DNA from: Olsenella timonensis
Lineage (GTDB): Bacteria; Actinomycetota; Coriobacteriia; Coriobacteriales; Atopobiaceae
Direction: 5' to 3'
Length of the DNA stretch: 64,000 nt
Assembly: GCF_900119915.1 (NCBI RefSeq)
Contig: NZ_LT635455.1
Location: 868,001 to 932,000, forward strand
The first letter of the stretch is position 1. The number at the start of each line of letters is the position of its first letter. The notes beneath the pieces are model-generated. The model was not told the origin of the DNA. It made no database searches and saw nothing but the letters and a program-made list of their open reading frames with translations. The translations under genes and the position numbers were made by a program. Below are positions 38,452-45,303 of this stretch, in pieces.

Positions 38452-38925
38452 TCTTGCGTCTCGCGGACGCAGCTCGCTCGAAGGGGGGCGCTCTCGCCCG
38501 CGCGCTTAAGAAAACGGGGTAGTTGCACCTTGGCGGCTGGGCGGATTGCCACAACCCCCGATTCCTCAACTCGCGCGTGCGGGGAGAAGGGCGGCAAGCC
38601 CGAAAGGGGGAGAGGGGCGACAAAGGCGAGAAGGGCAACAAGGGCAACAAGGGCAACAGGGGCGGCAAGGGCAACAAGCCCGAAGGGGCGACAAGGGTGA
38701 CAGGCCCGTTCGGCCGGATGTAACCGTTGGGTAAGGCGGTCCCGAGGGCGTTTTCTCGCTTCGTCGCCCGTAGGGGGGTCGGAGCCCGTTCGTGTCGCGA
38801 TTATTTTCACGGACGGAGGATGCGAAAGCTTATTTTCATATTACAGATGACTGACGCTAGCAGGGGTTTCTCCTCGTTATCGTGCCAAGCGCCGGCATAG
38901 ATAAGCAATTGAGGAGAGGAAGCCA
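38452..38925. repeat. Repeat-rich intergenic region before the ECF operon
   Basis: No gene accepted. GGATTGCCACAACCCCCGATTC (38543-38564) is the exact reverse complement of 44195-44216. From 38582 to about 38700 a G-rich 9-bp tandem repeat (AAGGGCAAC and variants, including GAGAAGGGC) reads in one frame as Gly-x-y triplets. From 38795 the DNA becomes AT-richer and carries the presumed promoter/operator of the downstream operon. Confidence 0.65.
38801..38844 (+). promoter_or_regulatory. Candidate operator and promoter of the ECF operon
   Basis: Two direct copies of TTATTTTCA (38801-38809 and 38830-38838), the second forming GAAAGCTTATTTTC with an inverted GAAA, and a possible -10 TATTAC at 38839-38844. 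RpiR-family regulators usually bind short T/A-rich dyads of this kind, and such a regulator is the last gene of the operon. Inference only. Confidence 0.35.
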
Positions 38926-39762
38926 ATGTCTGCAGCGAAGGTAAGCTACACCCAGTCCCAAAAGCTCATGACCTTTGTTCTCTCGATGTCGCTCTACGGT
39001 CTCGCCACGCTCATCTCGGAGCTCATCCCGTCCGTTCAGGTCGGCGTCGTCGAGTTCTCCGTCGAGTTCTTCCTGTTCATCCCGCTCACCATCGCCATGC
39101 TCTTCGACCCTCTTTCCGCCGCCCTCGGCGCCGCAACGGGAGAGCTCGTCTTCTCGGAGATCATGCTCGGGCAGTTCGGCGGCATCGGGGAGCTCGAGAA
39201 GTTCCTGACCGTCACCATTGCCGTCTACATTGCCGGCACCCTGGTGAAGGACCCGCGCGATATGAAGTCCATCGCGCTCGTCTCCCTCGGGTGCACCGCG
39301 CTGCAGCTTGTCATGAGCGCCGGCGTTGACATCTGCAAGGTCGTCTTTGCCGTCGAGGAGTTCGAGGCCGTACCCGGCCTCCCCGAGTCCGTCTTCTTCA
39401 CCGAGGGCTTCTCCGCGGTGAACGACCTGCTCTTCTCGGGAATCCTGTTCTGCATGCTTCCCACGATGTTCCTCGTTCCGCGTCTGTACGGCAAGATCGA
39501 GCCGCTGCTCGGCATGAGGCCCCGCACTGCCGAGAACGCCCCCGGCGCTCCTTCTGCCAAGCTCGTGGCGATCGCCGTCGCGTGCTTCGCCATCGCTGCC
39601 GCCGTGGCATGCTTCGCGGAGGCCGGCTTCTCCCTCATCGAGTGGGAGGCTGAGTGGGCCAAGTCCGAGGGTGCAATCTTTGCCGGCATCGCGGTGGCCG
39701 CGGTGGTCGCCGTCGTCGCGGGCTTCTGGGCGTACCGCAGCGCCCAGCTCAAGGCCGCGTAG
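38926..39762 (+). CDS. ECF transporter substrate-binding (S) component, substrate unknown
   Basis: A 278-residue, strongly hydrophobic protein with about six or seven transmembrane segments, starting behind GAGGAGAGGA. The layout (FVLSMSLYGLATLISELIP; FFLFIPLTIAMLFDPLSAALGAATGEL) is that of an ECF S component. It is longer than typical vitamin S components (about 180-200 residues), with extra helices at 205-275. It precedes the ATPase and T component genes directly. I do not recognise a vitamin-specific signature; the PHP phosphoesterase and RpiR genes in the operon argue for a sugar- or phosphate-ester-related substrate (inference). Confidence 0.72.
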   Translation: MSAAKVSYTQSQKLMTFVLSMSLYGLATLISELIPSVQVGVVEFSVEFFLFIPLTIAMLFDPLSAALGAATGELVFSEIMLGQFGGIGELEKFLTVTIAVYIAGTLVKDPRDMKSIALVSLGCTALQLVMSAGVDICKVVFAVEEFEAVPGLPESVFFTEGFSAVNDLLFSGILFCMLPTMFLVPRLYGKIEPLLGMRPRTAENAPGAPSAKLVAIAVACFAIAAAVACFAEAGFSLIEWEAEWAKSEGAIFAGIAVAAVVAVVAGFWAYRSAQLKAA

Positions 39763-39772
39763 GGAGAAGAAC

Positions 39773-41509
39773 GTGTCAGCAGTCACGCTTAGAGACGTCA
39801 CCTTCACCTATCCTGGCGCGGCCGCGCCCACCCTCCGCCACGTGAACCTCGACGTGGCGGAGGGGGACTTTCTCGCCATCATGGGAGCAAACGGGTGCGG
39901 CAAGTCGACGCTGTGCAAGACGATGAACGGGCTCATTCCGCAGTTCATCGTCGGGGACCTCGAGGGTGAGGTCACCGTGGCGGGCGTCGATGCGGCGACC
40001 TCCCAGATCGGCGAGCTCGCCCAGCGCATCGGCTACGTCTATCAGGACTTCGAGAATCAGCTCGTGCGCCCCACCGTCATCGACGAGGCGTCCTTCTCGT
40101 GCCTCAACTTCGCTTGCGAGGACTATGTCGAGCGAGGGATGCGCGCGCTCGAGCTTTGCGGCCTCGCGGACCGCGCGGACTCCTACATCTGGCAGCTCTC
40201 GGGAGGTCAGAAGCACCTGCTCGCGCTCGCGGGCGCCATCGCGCTCGAGCCAGACGTGATCGTGCTCGACGAGCCCGTCGCCCAGCTCGACCCCTACCAC
40301 GCCGAGCGAACCTACGAGGTGCTGCGCGAGCTCAACGAGAAGTATGGCAAGACGATCATCGTCATCGAGCACCACACCGACTTCATTGCCGAGTACTGCA
40401 AGACCGCCTGTCTCATGGCTGACGGCGCCATCGCCTGGAAGCTCCCGGCGCGCGAGGCGCTGCGCCGCATCGACGACCTTTCCGCGAGCGACGTTCACCC
40501 GCCGCAGATCGCGCTTGCCGCCTGCGAGCTCGTCCGCGTGGGCGCGCTTCCCGAGGGCGCTCCACTGCCCACCACCGTTGACGAGGGCGCCACGGCGTTT
40601 TGGGGCGTCCCCTTCGTCGCGCGGGAGCGTGGGCACGCCCCGGCGTCCGCCGCGCAGCCCGTCGTCTCGTTTAGGGGCGTCGACGTGAGCTACCGCAGCG
40701 TCAAGGGGGCTCCCCGCCAGGTGTTTCGTGACCTCGACCTGGATATCCGCCAGGGCGAGAAGGTCGCGCTCGTGGGTGCCAACGGGGCGGGCAAGTCCAC
40801 GCTCATGAAGCTCATGTGCGGCCTCATCAAGCCGCAGGCGGGCGAGGTCCTCGTTGGCGGCACCAGTACGCGCGGCATCAGCCCGGATGAGCTGTCCGAG
40901 AAGGTCAGCATCGTCTACCAGAACCCCGAGCAGATGTTCATCAAGGACTCCGTTCGTGCGGATGTCGAGTTTGCCATGAGGGCGCGCGGAATCGAGGACG
41001 CGGCAGAGCGCGCGAGCTCCCTGCTCGAGCGATTCCGTCTCACCGAGCTCGCCGAGCGCGACGGACGTCTGCTCTCGGGAGGCCAGATGCGCCGCGCATC
41101 TCTCGCCGTGGGCATTGCGCTCGACCCGCCGATCCTTCTGCTCGACGAGCCCACCGCCAACCTCGACATCGGTACGCGGCAGGAGATCATCCAGCTCGTC
41201 TCGGACCTTCGGGGCGTCACGGACACGGTCGTCATCGCGACGCATGACATGCAGCTCGTCTGCCAGTTCGCCGAGCGCGTCATCGTGCTCACTGACGGAG
41301 AGGTCATCGGCGACGCCGCCCCCGACGAGGTCTTCATGGACGAGGGGGTGGTCGCGCGCTCGGGCATCCGCCCGCCGGAGATCTTTCAGATGGGGCGCGC
41401 GCTCGACTGTCGCGCCGCCTGCTACACGCTCGAGGAGTTTCTCGCCTGCTTCCCGGCATGGGAGGCCGCTCGGGGCGAGAAGAACGTGGTTGAGGAGATG
41501 TGCGCATGA
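39773..41509 (+). CDS. ECF transporter ATPase, two fused ATP-binding domains (A-A')
   Basis: A 578-residue protein with two complete ABC domains. Domain 1 (about 1-230): Walker A GANGCGKSTLC, signature LSGGQKHLLALA, Walker B VIVLDEPVAQLDP. Domain 2 (about 300-530): Walker A GANGAGKSTLM, signature LLSGGQMRRASLA, Walker B ILLLDEPTANLDI. The two halves correspond to EcfA and EcfA' and energise the T/S membrane parts. It begins at a GTG 10 nt after the S gene, preceded by GGGAGAAGA; upstream in-frame codons lie inside the S gene. It overlaps the T gene by 4 nt. Confidence 0.9.
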   Translation: MSAVTLRDVTFTYPGAAAPTLRHVNLDVAEGDFLAIMGANGCGKSTLCKTMNGLIPQFIVGDLEGEVTVAGVDAATSQIGELAQRIGYVYQDFENQLVRPTVIDEASFSCLNFACEDYVERGMRALELCGLADRADSYIWQLSGGQKHLLALAGAIALEPDVIVLDEPVAQLDPYHAERTYEVLRELNEKYGKTIIVIEHHTDFIAEYCKTACLMADGAIAWKLPAREALRRIDDLSASDVHPPQIALAACELVRVGALPEGAPLPTTVDEGATAFWGVPFVARERGHAPASAAQPVVSFRGVDVSYRSVKGAPRQVFRDLDLDIRQGEKVALVGANGAGKSTLMKLMCGLIKPQAGEVLVGGTSTRGISPDELSEKVSIVYQNPEQMFIKDSVRADVEFAMRARGIEDAAERASSLLERFRLTELAERDGRLLSGGQMRRASLAVGIALDPPILLLDEPTANLDIGTRQEIIQLVSDLRGVTDTVVIATHDMQLVCQFAERVIVLTDGEVIGDAAPDEVFMDEGVVARSGIRPPEIFQMGRALDCRAACYTLEEFLACFPAWEAARGEKNVVEEMCA

Positions 41510-42339
41510 TCGAGAAGATATCCGAGAGCGTCCTAGACAAGGTCTCCATCGACTTTCTGCGTGACCAGGTGCTCAAGAACGCCTACGGAAACGACGACAC
41601 ACCCATCGCGAGGCTCGACCCGCGGGTGCTCCTGCTGTGGTACCTCTTCTTCGGCGTCGTGCCGTGGTTCCTGAACGACGTCGTCGTGCTGCTCGGCATC
41701 TTCGTCCTGACGGTGGTCACCACGCGCGTCGCCCGCGTGGCCCCGCTGGTGCTCTTCGTCTTTGCGCTGGGGGTGTTCTCGCAGACCGGTTACACGTTCG
41801 TCGTGTCGCTGCTCTTTGGCGGCAGCCTCGAGACGCTCGTGCCGCTGCTGGTGCTGACGCTCAAGGTGGCCACGTGCTCGCTCGCGAGCATCACGGTCTT
41901 TTCGGGACTCGACCCCGACAAGCTCTCCAACGGCCTGCTGTGGTTCGGTGTGCCCGAGCGCCTGTCCTTCTCGATCGCCTTTGCCTATCGCGTGCTGCCC
42001 ATCCTCATGGAGGAGCTGCAGAACATTCTGCTCTCCTACCGCCTGCGGGGGCGCGCCCCGGCCCACGACACCCTGGGCGGAAAGGTCCGCTGGCTGATCT
42101 ACCAGGTGAAGATCATCGTTCAGTCGTTCTACCCGCTCATGCTCAACACCGCCAAGCGCTCGCGCACGACGGTCGAGGCGCTCGAGCTCAAGGGGTATCG
42201 CTACGCCTCGACCAACCTCAAGGTTCTCAAGATCAAGCTCTCCTCCCTCCATGCGGGCAGACGCGAGGCCGCTTTCGTGGCGCTCTCTGCCGCGTGGGTC
42301 GTCCTGTGCCTCGTCATCTCTCGGATTGTGGGTCTCTAG
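41506..42339 (+). CDS. ECF transporter T component (EcfT)
   Basis: A 277-residue CbiQ-type membrane protein with about five or six transmembrane segments and the cytoplasmic coupling segments ending in Ala-Arg-Gly-like motifs (SYRLRGRAP and ALELKGYRY). Starts at ATG 41506 behind GAGGAG, overlapping the ATPase stop (ATGA). It couples the fused ATPase to the S component. The N-terminal 40 residues are an unusual soluble extension (ISESVLDKVSIDFLRDQVLKN). Confidence 0.88.
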   Translation: MIEKISESVLDKVSIDFLRDQVLKNAYGNDDTPIARLDPRVLLLWYLFFGVVPWFLNDVVVLLGIFVLTVVTTRVARVAPLVLFVFALGVFSQTGYTFVVSLLFGGSLETLVPLLVLTLKVATCSLASITVFSGLDPDKLSNGLLWFGVPERLSFSIAFAYRVLPILMEELQNILLSYRLRGRAPAHDTLGGKVRWLIYQVKIIVQSFYPLMLNTAKRSRTTVEALELKGYRYASTNLKVLKIKLSSLHAGRREAAFVALSAAWVVLCLVISRIVGL

Positions 42340-43134
42340 ATGGACATCGACTTTCACACGCATGGCAAGCTGGCAAAGTACCTCGCCTTCTCGCCCGACT
42401 ACACGGACTGGCTCTTCAACGAGGCGATAAGCGCGGGGCTCGATGCCCTGTGTCTCACGGAGCACTTCAACACCCAGGGCTTTCACGATGTCTATGCGGA
42501 CATCGCCCGTCGCTTTCCCCGGATTGGCGACGCCTATGACGTGAACGGGCTGCTCGTCTTCCCGGGGATGGAGATCGACGTGGCCGAGGGCGGCCATACG
42601 CTTGCGCTCGGCCCCATGGAGGACGTCCTCGATCTCAACGCCTGGCTCGAGCCCCACAAGGCCAGGGGGCACTTCCTGCCCTTTGGCGAGCTTGCCCACG
42701 AGGTGCATCGTCGCGGACTGCGCCTGGGGGCCGGTCATCCCTTCCGTGCGCCCGGCCACCTTCCCGAGCTCCCCGACGAGCAGCTCGCGGAGTTTGACTT
42801 TATCGACCTCAACGGGAAGGACCTCGCACGAGACCGCGAGCGCTCCGAGCGCCTCACCTTTGCGCTGGGAGAGCGCCTGGGCATCCCCGTGGTCTCGGGA
42901 AGCGACACGCACCAGGCCTTCCAGTACGGCTGCGTCGTCACGCGCGTGGCGCGTCGCTGCACGACTTTTGACGACCTCTTTGCGCAGGTCGAGGCAGGGG
43001 CGTACGAGATTGTCCTCGCCGATGACGCGGCATTCCGCGTGAAGACCGCGGGCTACCTCAAGCGCGCCCTCAAGGAGATCGACCGTCTCGGGGGCGACTA
43101 CGTGGCCACGATCCTTGCCGGTCAGGCGCTCTAG
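42340..43134 (+). CDS. PHP-domain metal-dependent phosphoesterase
   Basis: A 264-residue PHP protein. Metal ligands are visible: DFHTHGK at the N-terminus, LTEHFN, the conserved glutamate in PGMEIDV, AGHPFR, and the C-terminal GSDTHQ. PHP enzymes hydrolyse phosphate mono- or diesters (histidinol phosphate, 3',5'-bisphosphate, cyclic phosphates). The ATG follows the T-component stop with no gap, so the genes are coupled. This suggests the imported compound, or its phosphorylated product, is the substrate. Specificity unknown. Confidence 0.85.
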   Translation: MDIDFHTHGKLAKYLAFSPDYTDWLFNEAISAGLDALCLTEHFNTQGFHDVYADIARRFPRIGDAYDVNGLLVFPGMEIDVAEGGHTLALGPMEDVLDLNAWLEPHKARGHFLPFGELAHEVHRRGLRLGAGHPFRAPGHLPELPDEQLAEFDFIDLNGKDLARDRERSERLTFALGERLGIPVVSGSDTHQAFQYGCVVTRVARRCTTFDDLFAQVEAGAYEIVLADDAAFRVKTAGYLKRALKEIDRLGGDYVATILAGQAL

Positions 43135-43143
43135 GGGGTCGGC

Positions 43144-43968
43144 GTGGCACCTGAGTCGCTCTTCCGGGACAACGTGAACTATACCGACGCGGAGCACCTC
43201 ATCATCGACTTCGTCACCATGTGCCCGGCCGAGTTTCTCGTCATGTCGATCCAGCAGGTCTCGGCCCGTCTCGGCGTCTCCGACGCGACGGTGTCCCGCT
43301 TTGCGCGCCATGCGGGCTTCCGGGACTTCAAGGAGCTCAAGGCCGCCGTCGCCTCGGCGACCGTGGGCCCTGCCGAGAAGATCCGCACGAGCCTCGAGGG
43401 CTCTGGGTCCGCGCGCGCCTTTCTCGAGGGGCAGCTCGAGAACATAGGGAGGACCATTGACGGGCTTGATGACGATGCGTTCTCACGTGCCGTGGATGCG
43501 CTCTCCGGGGCGCGACGCGTGCTGCTTCTGGGAAAGGGCGCTGCCGGATCGCTCGCTGAGCTGCTTCGCTTCAGGCTGTCTCGCTTTGGCAAGGAGGTGA
43601 TCGTTCTCGCCGCGGGGTCTGATGCCATGGAAGGGCTCGTGCACGCGGATGCGCAGAGCGCGATCGTGGCCTTTGGGTTCCAGCGCGTGCCGGCCGAGGT
43701 CGAGATTGCGCTGGCGTACGCCCGAAGCGTGGGAGCGGTCTCGGTGCTCGTCACGGGCAGGCGTCACATTGGCTCGAGGGTTTCCGTGGACGTCGAGCTC
43801 ATCGCCTACCGCGGCGAGCCTCGCGGCTACCACTCCATGGCGAGTGCGGTCGCGCTGCTCGACGCGCTCGTCGTTGCCGTGGCGGGCCGGATGGATGGCG
43901 AGGCCATGGAGCGGCTCGAGCGGCTGAAGGCCCTCAAGCGCGAGCACGAGTCGAGGCTCCCACGCTAA
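43144..43968 (+). CDS. MurR/RpiR family transcriptional regulator
   Basis: A 274-residue regulator with an N-terminal HTH_6 (about 20-80: FLVMSIQQVSARLGVSDATVSRFARHAGF) and a C-terminal SIS sugar-phosphate-binding domain (about 125-255: RRVLLLGKGAAGSLAELLRFRLSRFGKEVIVL). GTG start 9 nt after the PHP gene. As the last gene of the operon it probably controls the cluster in response to a phosphorylated ligand. No terminator is clear behind it. Confidence 0.9.
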   Translation: MAPESLFRDNVNYTDAEHLIIDFVTMCPAEFLVMSIQQVSARLGVSDATVSRFARHAGFRDFKELKAAVASATVGPAEKIRTSLEGSGSARAFLEGQLENIGRTIDGLDDDAFSRAVDALSGARRVLLLGKGAAGSLAELLRFRLSRFGKEVIVLAAGSDAMEGLVHADAQSAIVAFGFQRVPAEVEIALAYARSVGAVSVLVTGRRHIGSRVSVDVELIAYRGEPRGYHSMASAVALLDALVVAVAGRMDGEAMERLERLKALKREHESRLPR

Positions 43969-44222
43969 CGGGGCGGGGCAGAGGACTTGCGGGACGGGGC
44001 GCCGAGAAGAACCTGCGCCGTGTTCCAGGAACGTGCTTCGCGTTCTTCTCGGCGGCTCTGCCCGCGCGTTCGCGTTGCGGAAAAGGGGGTTGTGGCAATC
44101 ACGACGAGGGTCAGACCCGCCGCCCTTCTCAGGGCGTTGCGGTTTTGGGGGTCATGGCAATCCGACGCTCGGCGGCGGGTCGCTTCGCGTTGTCGAATCG
44201 GGGGTTGTGGCAATCCGACGCT
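43969..44222. repeat. Tandem repeat units left of the IS30 element
   Basis: No gene. Three related units contain GGGGGT(T/C)(G/A)TGGCAATC at 44085-44100, 44147-44162 and 44200-44215; the 21-mer TGGCAATCCGACGCTCGGCGG is perfect at 44155-44175 and 44208-44228. One unit matches 38543-38564 in reverse complement over 22 bp. A hairpin near 44004-44051 (CCGAGAAGAAC ... GTTCTTCTCGG) may act as the end of the upstream transcript. Confidence 0.7.
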
Positions 44223-45303
44223 CGGCGGAGTCAGGCGACCATTGCACCGGCCTTCGCAAGCTCCTCCGCCAGCGCCTCCGCCGGCGTCCTCCACCCCAGG
44301 GTCTCCCGCGGCCTCCCGTTGAGCAGGTCCTGCGCCTCGCGGACCTCCCCGTCGGTCACGTCCGCGAACTCGGTGCCCTTCGGGAAGAACTGCCCGAGCA
44401 GCCCGTTGGCGTTCTCGTTGGTGCCCCGCTGCCAGGGCGAGTGCGGGTCGCAGAAGTAGACCCTGAAGCCCGTCGCCTCGGTGAAGCGGGCGTGCTCGGC
44501 CATCTCGACCCCCCTGGTCCCGTGTGAGGGTGGAGAGCAGCGCGTCGCGCACGCCGTCGGGCACCGACGCGACCATCTCGACGAGCAGGTCCACGACGGT
44601 CCTCGACTCGTGGCCGGGCAGCCTCCTGGCGACCAGGAAGCGCGTCCTGCGCTCCACGAGCGTCACGAGGCAGCTCCGGCCGCCCGAGCCCACCACCAGG
44701 TCGCCCTCCCAGTGCCCGGGCACGGCGCGGTCGGCGGCCTCGGGCGGGCGCGGCGAGATCCCGCAGCCCTCGCACCAGCCCCGGCCGGGCCTCTCCGGCA
44801 GCCTCGAGCGCGGCCTGCGCCCGCGCCGCCCCGAGCGCAGCGCCTGCACGCGCCCCAGCTCGTGGCGCAGGGCGCCCCTGCCCTGCACGTACAGGGCCTG
44901 GTATATGGTCTCGTGGCTCGCCCTCATGGCGCCATTGTCGGGGAACTCGAGCCTCATGCGCCCGGAAATCTGGCGCGGCGACCACCCCCTCAGGAGCCCC
45001 GCCGCGACGTAGGCCCTGAGGGCGGCCTCGGACTCGAGCCTGCGCGGCCTGTCGGCCGCCGCGAGCTCGGACGCCACGGGCGCCCCCCTCCTGGGCCTGC
45101 CGACCCTGACGGGCGCGCCCGCCGCGCGGCACCAGTCCCGCGCCGTGGTCGGGTCGCGCCCCACGACGCGGGCGGCGCCGGCGGCGGTCAGGCCGCCCCA
45201 CACCAGGTCGACGACCCTCCTCCTGGTCTCCTCGCCATAGTGCCTGTGCCCCCATTGAACCACGCCCCTCTCGTCGTGGTGCAATGGCCGCTGGAATCCG
45301 CCG
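44223..45303 (-). mobile_element. IS30-family insertion sequence
   Basis: An insertion of about 1.08 kb bounded by imperfect 26-bp inverted repeats: CGGCGGAGTCAGGCGACCAT... at the left (44223-44248) and its inverse at the right (45278-45303), 22 of 26 positions equal, sharing a perfect inner CCATTGCACC. It encodes one transposase that reads leftward. The outer CGGCGG of the left repeat is shared with the neighbouring tandem repeat unit, so the exact left boundary may be a few bases further in. No target duplication is obvious. Confidence 0.78.
44231..45284 (-). pseudogene. IS30-family transposase, frameshifted
   Basis: The frame opens at TTG 45284 (or GTG 45263) with a helix-turn-helix N-terminus, an RGWSPRQISGRM block and the first catalytic Asp in GHWEGDLVVG. 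After LSTLTRDQG (second Asp) the frame is lost at a run of six C (plus strand 44509-44514); the expected continuation VEMAEHARFTEATGF resumes in another frame and contains the catalytic Glu in GTNENANGLL and ends at 44231. One extra base in the run explains everything. Either the element is dead or the base is a sequencing error. All three DDE residues are otherwise intact. Confidence 0.85.

Follow-up and report, generated by a model that had tools for sequence, protein, structure and literature searches.

What does a bacterium import through an energy-coupling factor (ECF) transporter whose genes run straight into those for a phosphatase-like enzyme and an RpiR-type regulator? The question is raised by five co-directional genes lying head to tail at 38926-43968 of a 64,000-nucleotide stretch of the Olsenella timonensis genome (contig NZ_LT635455.1, positions 868,001 to 932,000 of the forward strand; hereafter the window), which encode, in order, a substrate-binding membrane protein (S), a double ATPase, the coupling protein EcfT, a PHP-fold enzyme and an RpiR/SIS regulator. 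A sequence-only reading of this DNA had claimed the same cluster, and it stands exactly at the positions given there, with the gaps and overlaps as described (10, −4, 0 and 9 nt; the PHP gene begins at the base directly after the EcfT stop). The system is best read as a conserved phosphate-scavenging form of a known transporter class: with fair assurance, we place it in the Pho regulon as a group I (dedicated) ECF importer, which would take up an organic phosphate and release phosphate inside the cell. Its parts are the following.

38825 to 38847, plus strand: PHO-box-like direct repeat, CTTATT (38829-38834)-N5-ATTACA (38840-38845); best site of the matrix described below.
38851 to 38856, plus strand: weaker third repeat unit, CTGACG, just past the PHO-box-like repeat.
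38926 to 39762, plus strand: ECF S component (substrate-binding membrane protein), 278 residues; assigned by AlphaFold, Foldseek, VIA-align and the family alignments A1 and A5.
39773 to 41509, plus strand: fused double ECF ATPase (A1-A2), 578 residues, GTG start; TIGR04520, TIGR04521 and two ABC_tran stretches.
41506 to 42339, plus strand: EcfT transmembrane coupling protein, 277 residues, overlapping the ATPase gene by 4 nt; CbiQ (PF02361) and alignment A3.
42340 to 43134, plus strand: PHP-fold enzyme, likely a metal phosphoesterase, 264 residues; PF13263, fold and invariant residues.
43144 to 43968, plus strand: RpiR-type regulator with HTH_6 and SIS domains, 274 residues, GTG start; PF01418 and PF01380.

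Two of the transporter parts are recognized by their families. The ATPase exceeds two equivalog cut-offs of NCBIfam for ECF ATPases (TIGR04520, 361 bits with a cut-off of 315; TIGR04521, 352 bits with a cut-off of 330) and matches ABC_tran of Pfam in two stretches, and EcfT matches CbiQ with 56.9 bits (cut-off 25). The S protein has no match in Pfam, in NCBIfam or among the PDB sequences, whether searched as a single protein or, for the PDB, as a 48-row profile. It thus matches no characterized vitamin family by sequence, a match that would have counted against the sequence-only reading, and a vitamin or metal transporter was rejected at the sequence level. In its AlphaFold model (mean predicted local distance difference test (pLDDT) score 76.6, from a 48-row alignment), the six-helix core of the S-component fold is found; ECF S components take ranks 1-12 in Foldseek, with probabilities of 1.00-0.66 and E values of 0.032 to 0.9, none at or below 0.001, and ranks 1-18 in VIA-align, with Z from 14.3 down to 7.9. 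As modelled, S is an ordinary ECF S fold without a sequence-family match. The core alignable to known S components stops near residue 200, and the length of 278 residues, which had stood out beforehand, is due to a C-terminal part with two additional long helices. Since RibU, FolT, ThiT, BioY and PanT score much alike against the model in VIA-align, the fold is uninformative on the ligand. The charged residues conserved to at least 98% in 106 sequences, archaea included, are E32, E73, E91, D135, K138, E147, E160 and E192. A pocket formed by such acids and a single lysine would accommodate a sugar or polyol phosphate, the acids turned to hydroxyls and the lysine to the phosphate, or else a cationic molecule.

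A scan of named species gave 148 loci, and the counts for named loci given here rest on the best 80 of them. S, double ATPase, EcfT and PHP stand together in 76 of these 80, so that S is encoded with its own ATPase and EcfT there as in the window, which is the group I arrangement. In the group I importers BioMNY, CbiMNQO and YkoEDC, too, a single operon supplies S, ATPase and T; the fold of S resembles ThiT, FolT, RibU and BioY, and the fused double ATPase presumably resembles YkoD. Unlike BioMNY, CbiMNQO and YkoEDC, the system of the window has an adjacent phosphatase, a PHO-type box, two extra C-terminal helices in S and an S protein without a family match. HtsTUV, an ECF family reportedly described from gene context, raises the alternative that survives best, namely that the transporter is already catalogued (TC 3.A.1.31, 'Unknown-ABC1') and that its role alone is new. 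In PMC3654945, HtsTUV is listed along with an Unknown-ABC1 ECF family of two members, HtsTUV there being likewise without a known substrate. It can be set beside the system of the window by description only, and the two may or may not be the same, which leaves the sequence-only reading's candidate for an undescribed system unproven as such; we hold their identity possible but somewhat doubtful, and it would be compatible with the uptake of an organic phosphate.

The strongest hint at the imported compound comes from the enzymes encoded beside the transporter. What is constant across lineages is the transporter together with a phosphatase family, while the enzyme fold and the regulator change, and this constancy points to removal of phosphate from the imported compound. 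All eight actinomycete loci have a divergent LacI gene, then HAD, S, ATPase and T, with no PHP or RpiR match; the HAD protein consists of two HAD domains in tandem in at least seven of them (that of L143 was matched over its first half only), and a plasmid of Streptomyces cavourensis has the same arrangement, with HAD as the partner. In 12 of the 80 named loci, the final bases of the PHP gene are also the start of an IMPase-family gene, and the IMPase family also comes next after PHP in the coriobacterial locus L031. Three haloarchaeal plasmids carry S-ATPase-T, with S 37-39% identical: on the first, a ComB-type phosphatase follows; on the second, a ComB-type phosphatase and a distant PHP protein (28% over 94 residues); and on the third, a pair of IMPase-family genes, of which the second lies on the other strand. 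The regulator varies as well, being RpiR, LacI in the actinomycetes, or none annotated beside the genes on the three haloarchaeal plasmids. A second phosphatase site recurs in these arrangements (tandem HAD, PHP with IMPase, ComB with PHP, two IMPases) and thereby hints at a phosphodiester or bisphosphate substrate. Histidinol-phosphate and phosphoadenosine phosphate (pAp) routes were considered because the PHP and IMPase families both include enzymes of these routes; as the three scanned IMPase-family proteins fall below the NCBIfam cut-offs for inositol-1-monophosphatase, HisN and CysQ, neither route is favoured. Beyond the five genes, frames inside or antisense to these five, and the IMPase family, no gene family is found in more than 10 of 81 loci, rarer families being unannotated. 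Conserved catabolic neighbours were accordingly dropped as a substrate clue, and it is for this reason that the cell probably gains phosphorus rather than carbon.

Two observations concern the neighbours of these variant loci. In Halostagnicola (L223, 7948-8733), a sugar phosphate isomerase/epimerase-family gene lies divergently, directly before S, and is a possible hint at a sugar phosphate. Between the LacI and HAD genes of L133, L134 and L144-L148 lies, as judged by eye, an exact or near-exact palindrome, TGGAACGTTCCA, more divergent in L143, which is probably a LacI operator.

A second line of evidence lies upstream of S, where the regions share a direct repeat with an 11-bp period. From 96 upstream regions, one shorter than 200 nt and 24 near-duplicates were removed, which left 71 non-redundant ones. 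TTWACA-N5-TTWACA, which we take to be the B. subtilis-type PhoP box consensus, was matched at 10 or more of 12 positions in 55 of the 71 forward, in seven in reverse and in 7.9 of 71 in dinucleotide shuffles; at other repeat spacings, spacing 1 being discussed below, 10-22 regions reached the threshold. For pstS, the comparison covered 22 loci in 17 genomes, G206, G913 and G915 (split matches) and some weak matches being left out. In seven of nine scored non-coriobacterial genomes that carry S, the box also precedes pstS at 11-12 of 12 positions (12 in G1440, G1009, G1378, G1422 and G1362; 11 in G914 and one of two G916 loci), G1267 and G1394 reaching 10. The actinomycetes have another form of the repeat: GTTCACC-N4-GTTCACC is found at 11 or more of 14 positions at seven of eight operon starts, in reverse at one of eight and in 4% of shuffles, while spacings of 2, 3, 5 and 6 give one, two, two and no operons, and the same repeat precedes six of the eight best actinomycete pstS loci. 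PHO boxes are described as two 11-nt direct repeats, and GTTCACC as the PHO motif of S. coelicolor, in PMC4415409. Before S on the haloarchaeal plasmids there was no convincing PHO-type box (best 8 of 12). For the family as a whole, the repeat is thus phased at 11 bp and like the pstS box. The sequence-only reading had proposed that the compound taken up is or becomes a phosphate ester and is hydrolysed by the PHP enzyme; import of such an ester with hydrolysis in the cell is strengthened as a proposal by the several unrelated phosphatase families and by this PHO-box-like repeat.

For the copy in the window, a matrix was trained on 50 of 57 non-redundant non-coriobacterial S-operon regions (those scoring at least 10). 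Its best site on both strands of the 64 kb is 38825-38847 on the plus strand, which ends 78 nt before S and scores 7.5, the next best site scoring −0.1. Column-permuted matrices reach the score of the window in 6 of 1000 trials; the window has 69% G+C, and A+T richness gives part of the matrix contrast, for which the column shuffle controls. Of 13 coriobacterial regions, 12 score 5.1 to 16.6, and none of 1000 shuffled matrices reaches the mean of all 13 (8.58). A motif search of the window's own genome gave one exact site, that of the S operon, and one with two mismatches in sequence that looks unrelated by eye, the reversed control pattern giving one match; before the genome's pstS, the consensus reaches 10 of 12 in reverse and 9 forward, and the matrix −1.0 and −5.9, respectively.

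From these elements the following course can be proposed. At low phosphate, a PhoP/PhoB-type regulator would act at the box upstream of S. The ligand of S would be a small organic phosphate, with sugar phosphates, polyol phosphates and related phosphodiesters as the likeliest candidates; import would be driven by the double ATPase and EcfT, partners of an S protein whose fold was seen in the model. Phosphate would then be removed in the cytoplasm by the PHP enzyme, which some relatives pair with the IMPase-family enzyme; the HAD or ComB-type enzymes present in place of PHP in other lineages would presumably act likewise. RpiR, or LacI elsewhere, may add a second, ligand-dependent control.

Several findings weigh against this proposal. 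The strictly conserved charges of S are mainly acidic, K138 being the sole basic one, which is more in keeping with a cation or with the hydroxyls of a polyol than with a bare anion. One relative has a lone S (L178, 8699-9580, genome G1295), without an ATPase, EcfT or phosphatase match of these families alongside. Among the upstream regions, spacing 1 is likewise above chance (29 of 71); in G916, G1394 and G1422 a different spacing also reaches 11 before pstS, and second pstS copies score 7-9 in four genomes. Two of the eight actinomycete matches (L133 and L134) coincide in part with the LacI palindrome. According to PMC4415409, PHO boxes have been confirmed also at genes whose control by phosphate is not obvious. 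In the Coriobacteriia, the box of the window reaches 8 of 12 by plain consensus, one of the 13 S operons (L054) has no good site (−3.3), the pstS repeats are for the most part found in reverse (consensus 9-11, against 7-9 forward), and the matrix rates only one of eight pstS genes well. The site in the window is the best of the matrix despite this weak consensus and these mixed pstS results, and Pho control of this copy is therefore graded as likely. The lone S gene of L178 is itself preceded by a PHO-type box at 12 of 12, and in its product the conserved positions E73 and K138 are altered.

The acidic residues of S bear in particular on another explanation, that S imports a phosphate-free nutrient such as a vitamin-like compound, a sugar or an amine, that the phosphatases trim a phosphorylated derivative formed inside the cell, and that the Pho box is incidental or belongs to another OmpR-type regulator. 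The known characterized ECF substrates are vitamins, cofactors, metals or heme (vitamins, cofactors and heme being also among the literature matches listed), which together with the mainly acidic conserved charges speaks for such a nutrient. Two PHO consensus forms in two phyla, each like the pstS box of several of the same genomes, argue against it, as does the lack of any kinase or salvage gene common to more than 10 of 81 loci; we consider this explanation unlikely.

The PHP protein bears on a third explanation. It matches PHP_C (PF13263) with 28.2 bits (cut-off 21.3) and stays below the cut-off for PF02811 itself (22.5, cut-off 26.4), and its AlphaFold model (pLDDT 95.4) has the PHP fold. 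H6, H8, E41, H42, E78, H86, H133, D189 and H191 are invariant in 43 of 43 rows of alignment A6; these residues (H-x-H, E-H, E78, H86, H133 and D-x-H) are at what we take to be the metal-ligand positions, and the protein is likely a metal phosphoesterase, judged by fold and invariant residues. The closest folds are PsfC (7rty; Z 27.2, root-mean-square deviation 2.2, 229 residues), EndoQ and TM0559, and PsfC is also the best PDB sequence match (2e-11). The PHP fold is common to TM0559, BVU_3505, RNase AM, C. violaceum 2yb1 and PsfC, with Z from 27.2 (PsfC) to 14.1 (2yb1), and the protein of the window is at most 23% identical to these and forms a family of its own. As another PHP activity, an Eggerthella lenta enzyme is reported to turn a cyclic phosphodiester into phosphate and a diol (PMC5460133). 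That the nearest relative in fold, PsfC, is described in PMC12871164 as a dinuclear iron enzyme and not a phosphatase, with an iron-dependent part in fosfomycin synthesis unlike the role proposed here, counts among the points against the proposal above. It would fit the oxidative processing of a phosphonate or other phosphorus compound by a PsfC-like dinuclear iron enzyme of the PHP fold. We regard this as very improbable: PsfC has Asn opposite the invariant H86 (a His four residues further on makes a shifted alignment possible), for which reason the function of PsfC is not carried over, and the enzymes that replace PHP elsewhere belong to the ordinary phosphatase families HAD, IMPase and ComB-type. 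Anti-phage defence was rejected, PADLOC giving no match for S, PHP or RpiR.

The regulator has the domains of the MurR/RpiR family, HTH_6 (43.5 bits, cut-off 28.3) and SIS (27.2 bits, cut-off 25), and is below the cut-off for all listed NCBIfam models. Phosphosugar-binding SIS domains usually carry S-x-S-G-x-T; this loop is not found in the SIS domain of the window, which has FGFQRVP at the aligned place (FSFSKLS, for example, in relatives), and a loose S-x-S-[GA] word occurs anywhere in the sequence in 20 of 81 regulators. The proposal that the SIS domain senses the substrate finds no support in this replaced loop, in the LacI of the actinomycetes or in the absence of an annotated regulator beside the genes on the three haloarchaeal plasmids.

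A check proposed in the sequence-only reading, whether S, PHP and RpiR are found together across the Coriobacteriia, had a positive outcome: S occurs in 13 of 296 genomes of this class, and all 13, the window included, keep S-ATPase-T-PHP-RpiR, L031 with an extra gene between PHP and RpiR. Neighbours that vary freely, which would have spoken against a functional unit, were not seen within this branch, where the five-gene order recurs. The PHP protein occurs in 14 of the 296 genomes, these 13 and one of the same genus (G084, L132), in which S and the first part of the ATPase gene are missing and the rest of that gene is present with T, PHP and RpiR. The carriers in the named scan are Coriobacteriia (Thermophilibacter, Olsenella, Collinsella and Enorma), clostridia, erysipelotrichs and lactic acid bacteria. 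Four named loci lack the full set; three of these reach the contig end (L091, L113 and L129), and in L099 (contig CANPET010000162.1) the similarity to the ATPase covers about 114 residues and the remaining 1.8 kb of the contig hold neither T nor PHP, the locus being broken, rearranged or misassembled. RpiR is near PHP in 69 of the 80 loci, at a distance of up to 259 nt in 57 and beyond one intervening gene of about 0.8 kb in 12, on the same strand as S in 40 and on the opposite strand in 29; the 11 loci without it comprise seven at a contig end, L099, and three to which neither applies (L068, L078 and L105).

Elsewhere, the S profile was found in 8 of 296 actinomycetes, in 2 of 291 genomes from the class of Anaerostipes and in 14 of 250 from that of Bavariicoccus. 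Twelve of these 14 Bacilli were examined, G1209 and G1383 being left out; S-ATPase-T-PHP is present in all ten loci with a complete transporter, and RpiR lies divergently upstream of S in nine, the tenth starting too close to the contig end; the lone S of L178 makes up an eleventh Bacilli locus. A Niallia plasmid also carries RpiR, S, ATPase, T and PHP. In alignment A5, the S of the window is 56-67% identical to clostridia and bacilli and 37-41% to two actinomycete rows of its own phylum, more distant Bacilli and clostridial loci being at 40-53%. That S is nearer to the former than to actinomycetes of its own phylum suggests a transfer of the module between phyla. We lean slightly towards the wider claim that no ECF importer dedicated to phosphorus has been described before this one, a transferable module spread over two bacterial phyla and the haloarchaea. 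Under Pho control, with boxes in the bacteria only, it would bring in an organic phosphate intact through its membrane-embedded S protein and make use of any phosphatase available (PHP, HAD, IMPase or ComB-type).

If true, a phosphorus-feeding branch would widen the ECF class. No link between an ECF transporter and the Pho regulon was found among the matches listed from the open-access literature, of which one listing covered 20 of 107 and two papers contain both terms once each. The classical ABC importer Ugp of E. coli uses a soluble binding protein, whereas the system of the window would combine an ECF membrane S protein with a cytoplasmic phosphatase. Both Ugp and GlpT-GlpQ tie the import of organic phosphate to a phosphoesterase, and Ugp is Pho-controlled, as stated in PMC7866108. 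The same paper reports that Streptomyces uses sugar phosphates and nucleotides as a phosphate source with no evidence of uhp and with ugp lacking, and that hydrolysis of glycerol-3-phosphate before transport has been suggested. One Streptomyces plasmid carries the transporter-phosphatase module, which would be a concrete candidate for the route, if there is one, by which organic phosphates enter intact in bacteria that have neither Ugp nor Uhp. The names of many carriers suggest that the system could also bear on how gut bacteria obtain phosphorus. Names and strain codes of many of them (loci L052-L131) suggest the chicken gut by eye, which may reflect sampling.

The surroundings of the operon in the window hold repeats and a possible mobile element. 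Copies of a GGATTGCCACAACCCC-core repeat flank it in opposite orientation at 38542-38587 and 44057-44217 (82-91% complementary), the core having five matches in the window with at most two mismatches, against 0.14 expected; they may mark a transferred segment. Directly downstream lies a transposase-like reading frame on the minus strand (43965-45284 and 44231-44503), apparently split across two frames as judged by eye. Between the upstream gene and the operon, a 9-nt tandem repeat of AAGGGCAAC-like units occupies 38604-38684.

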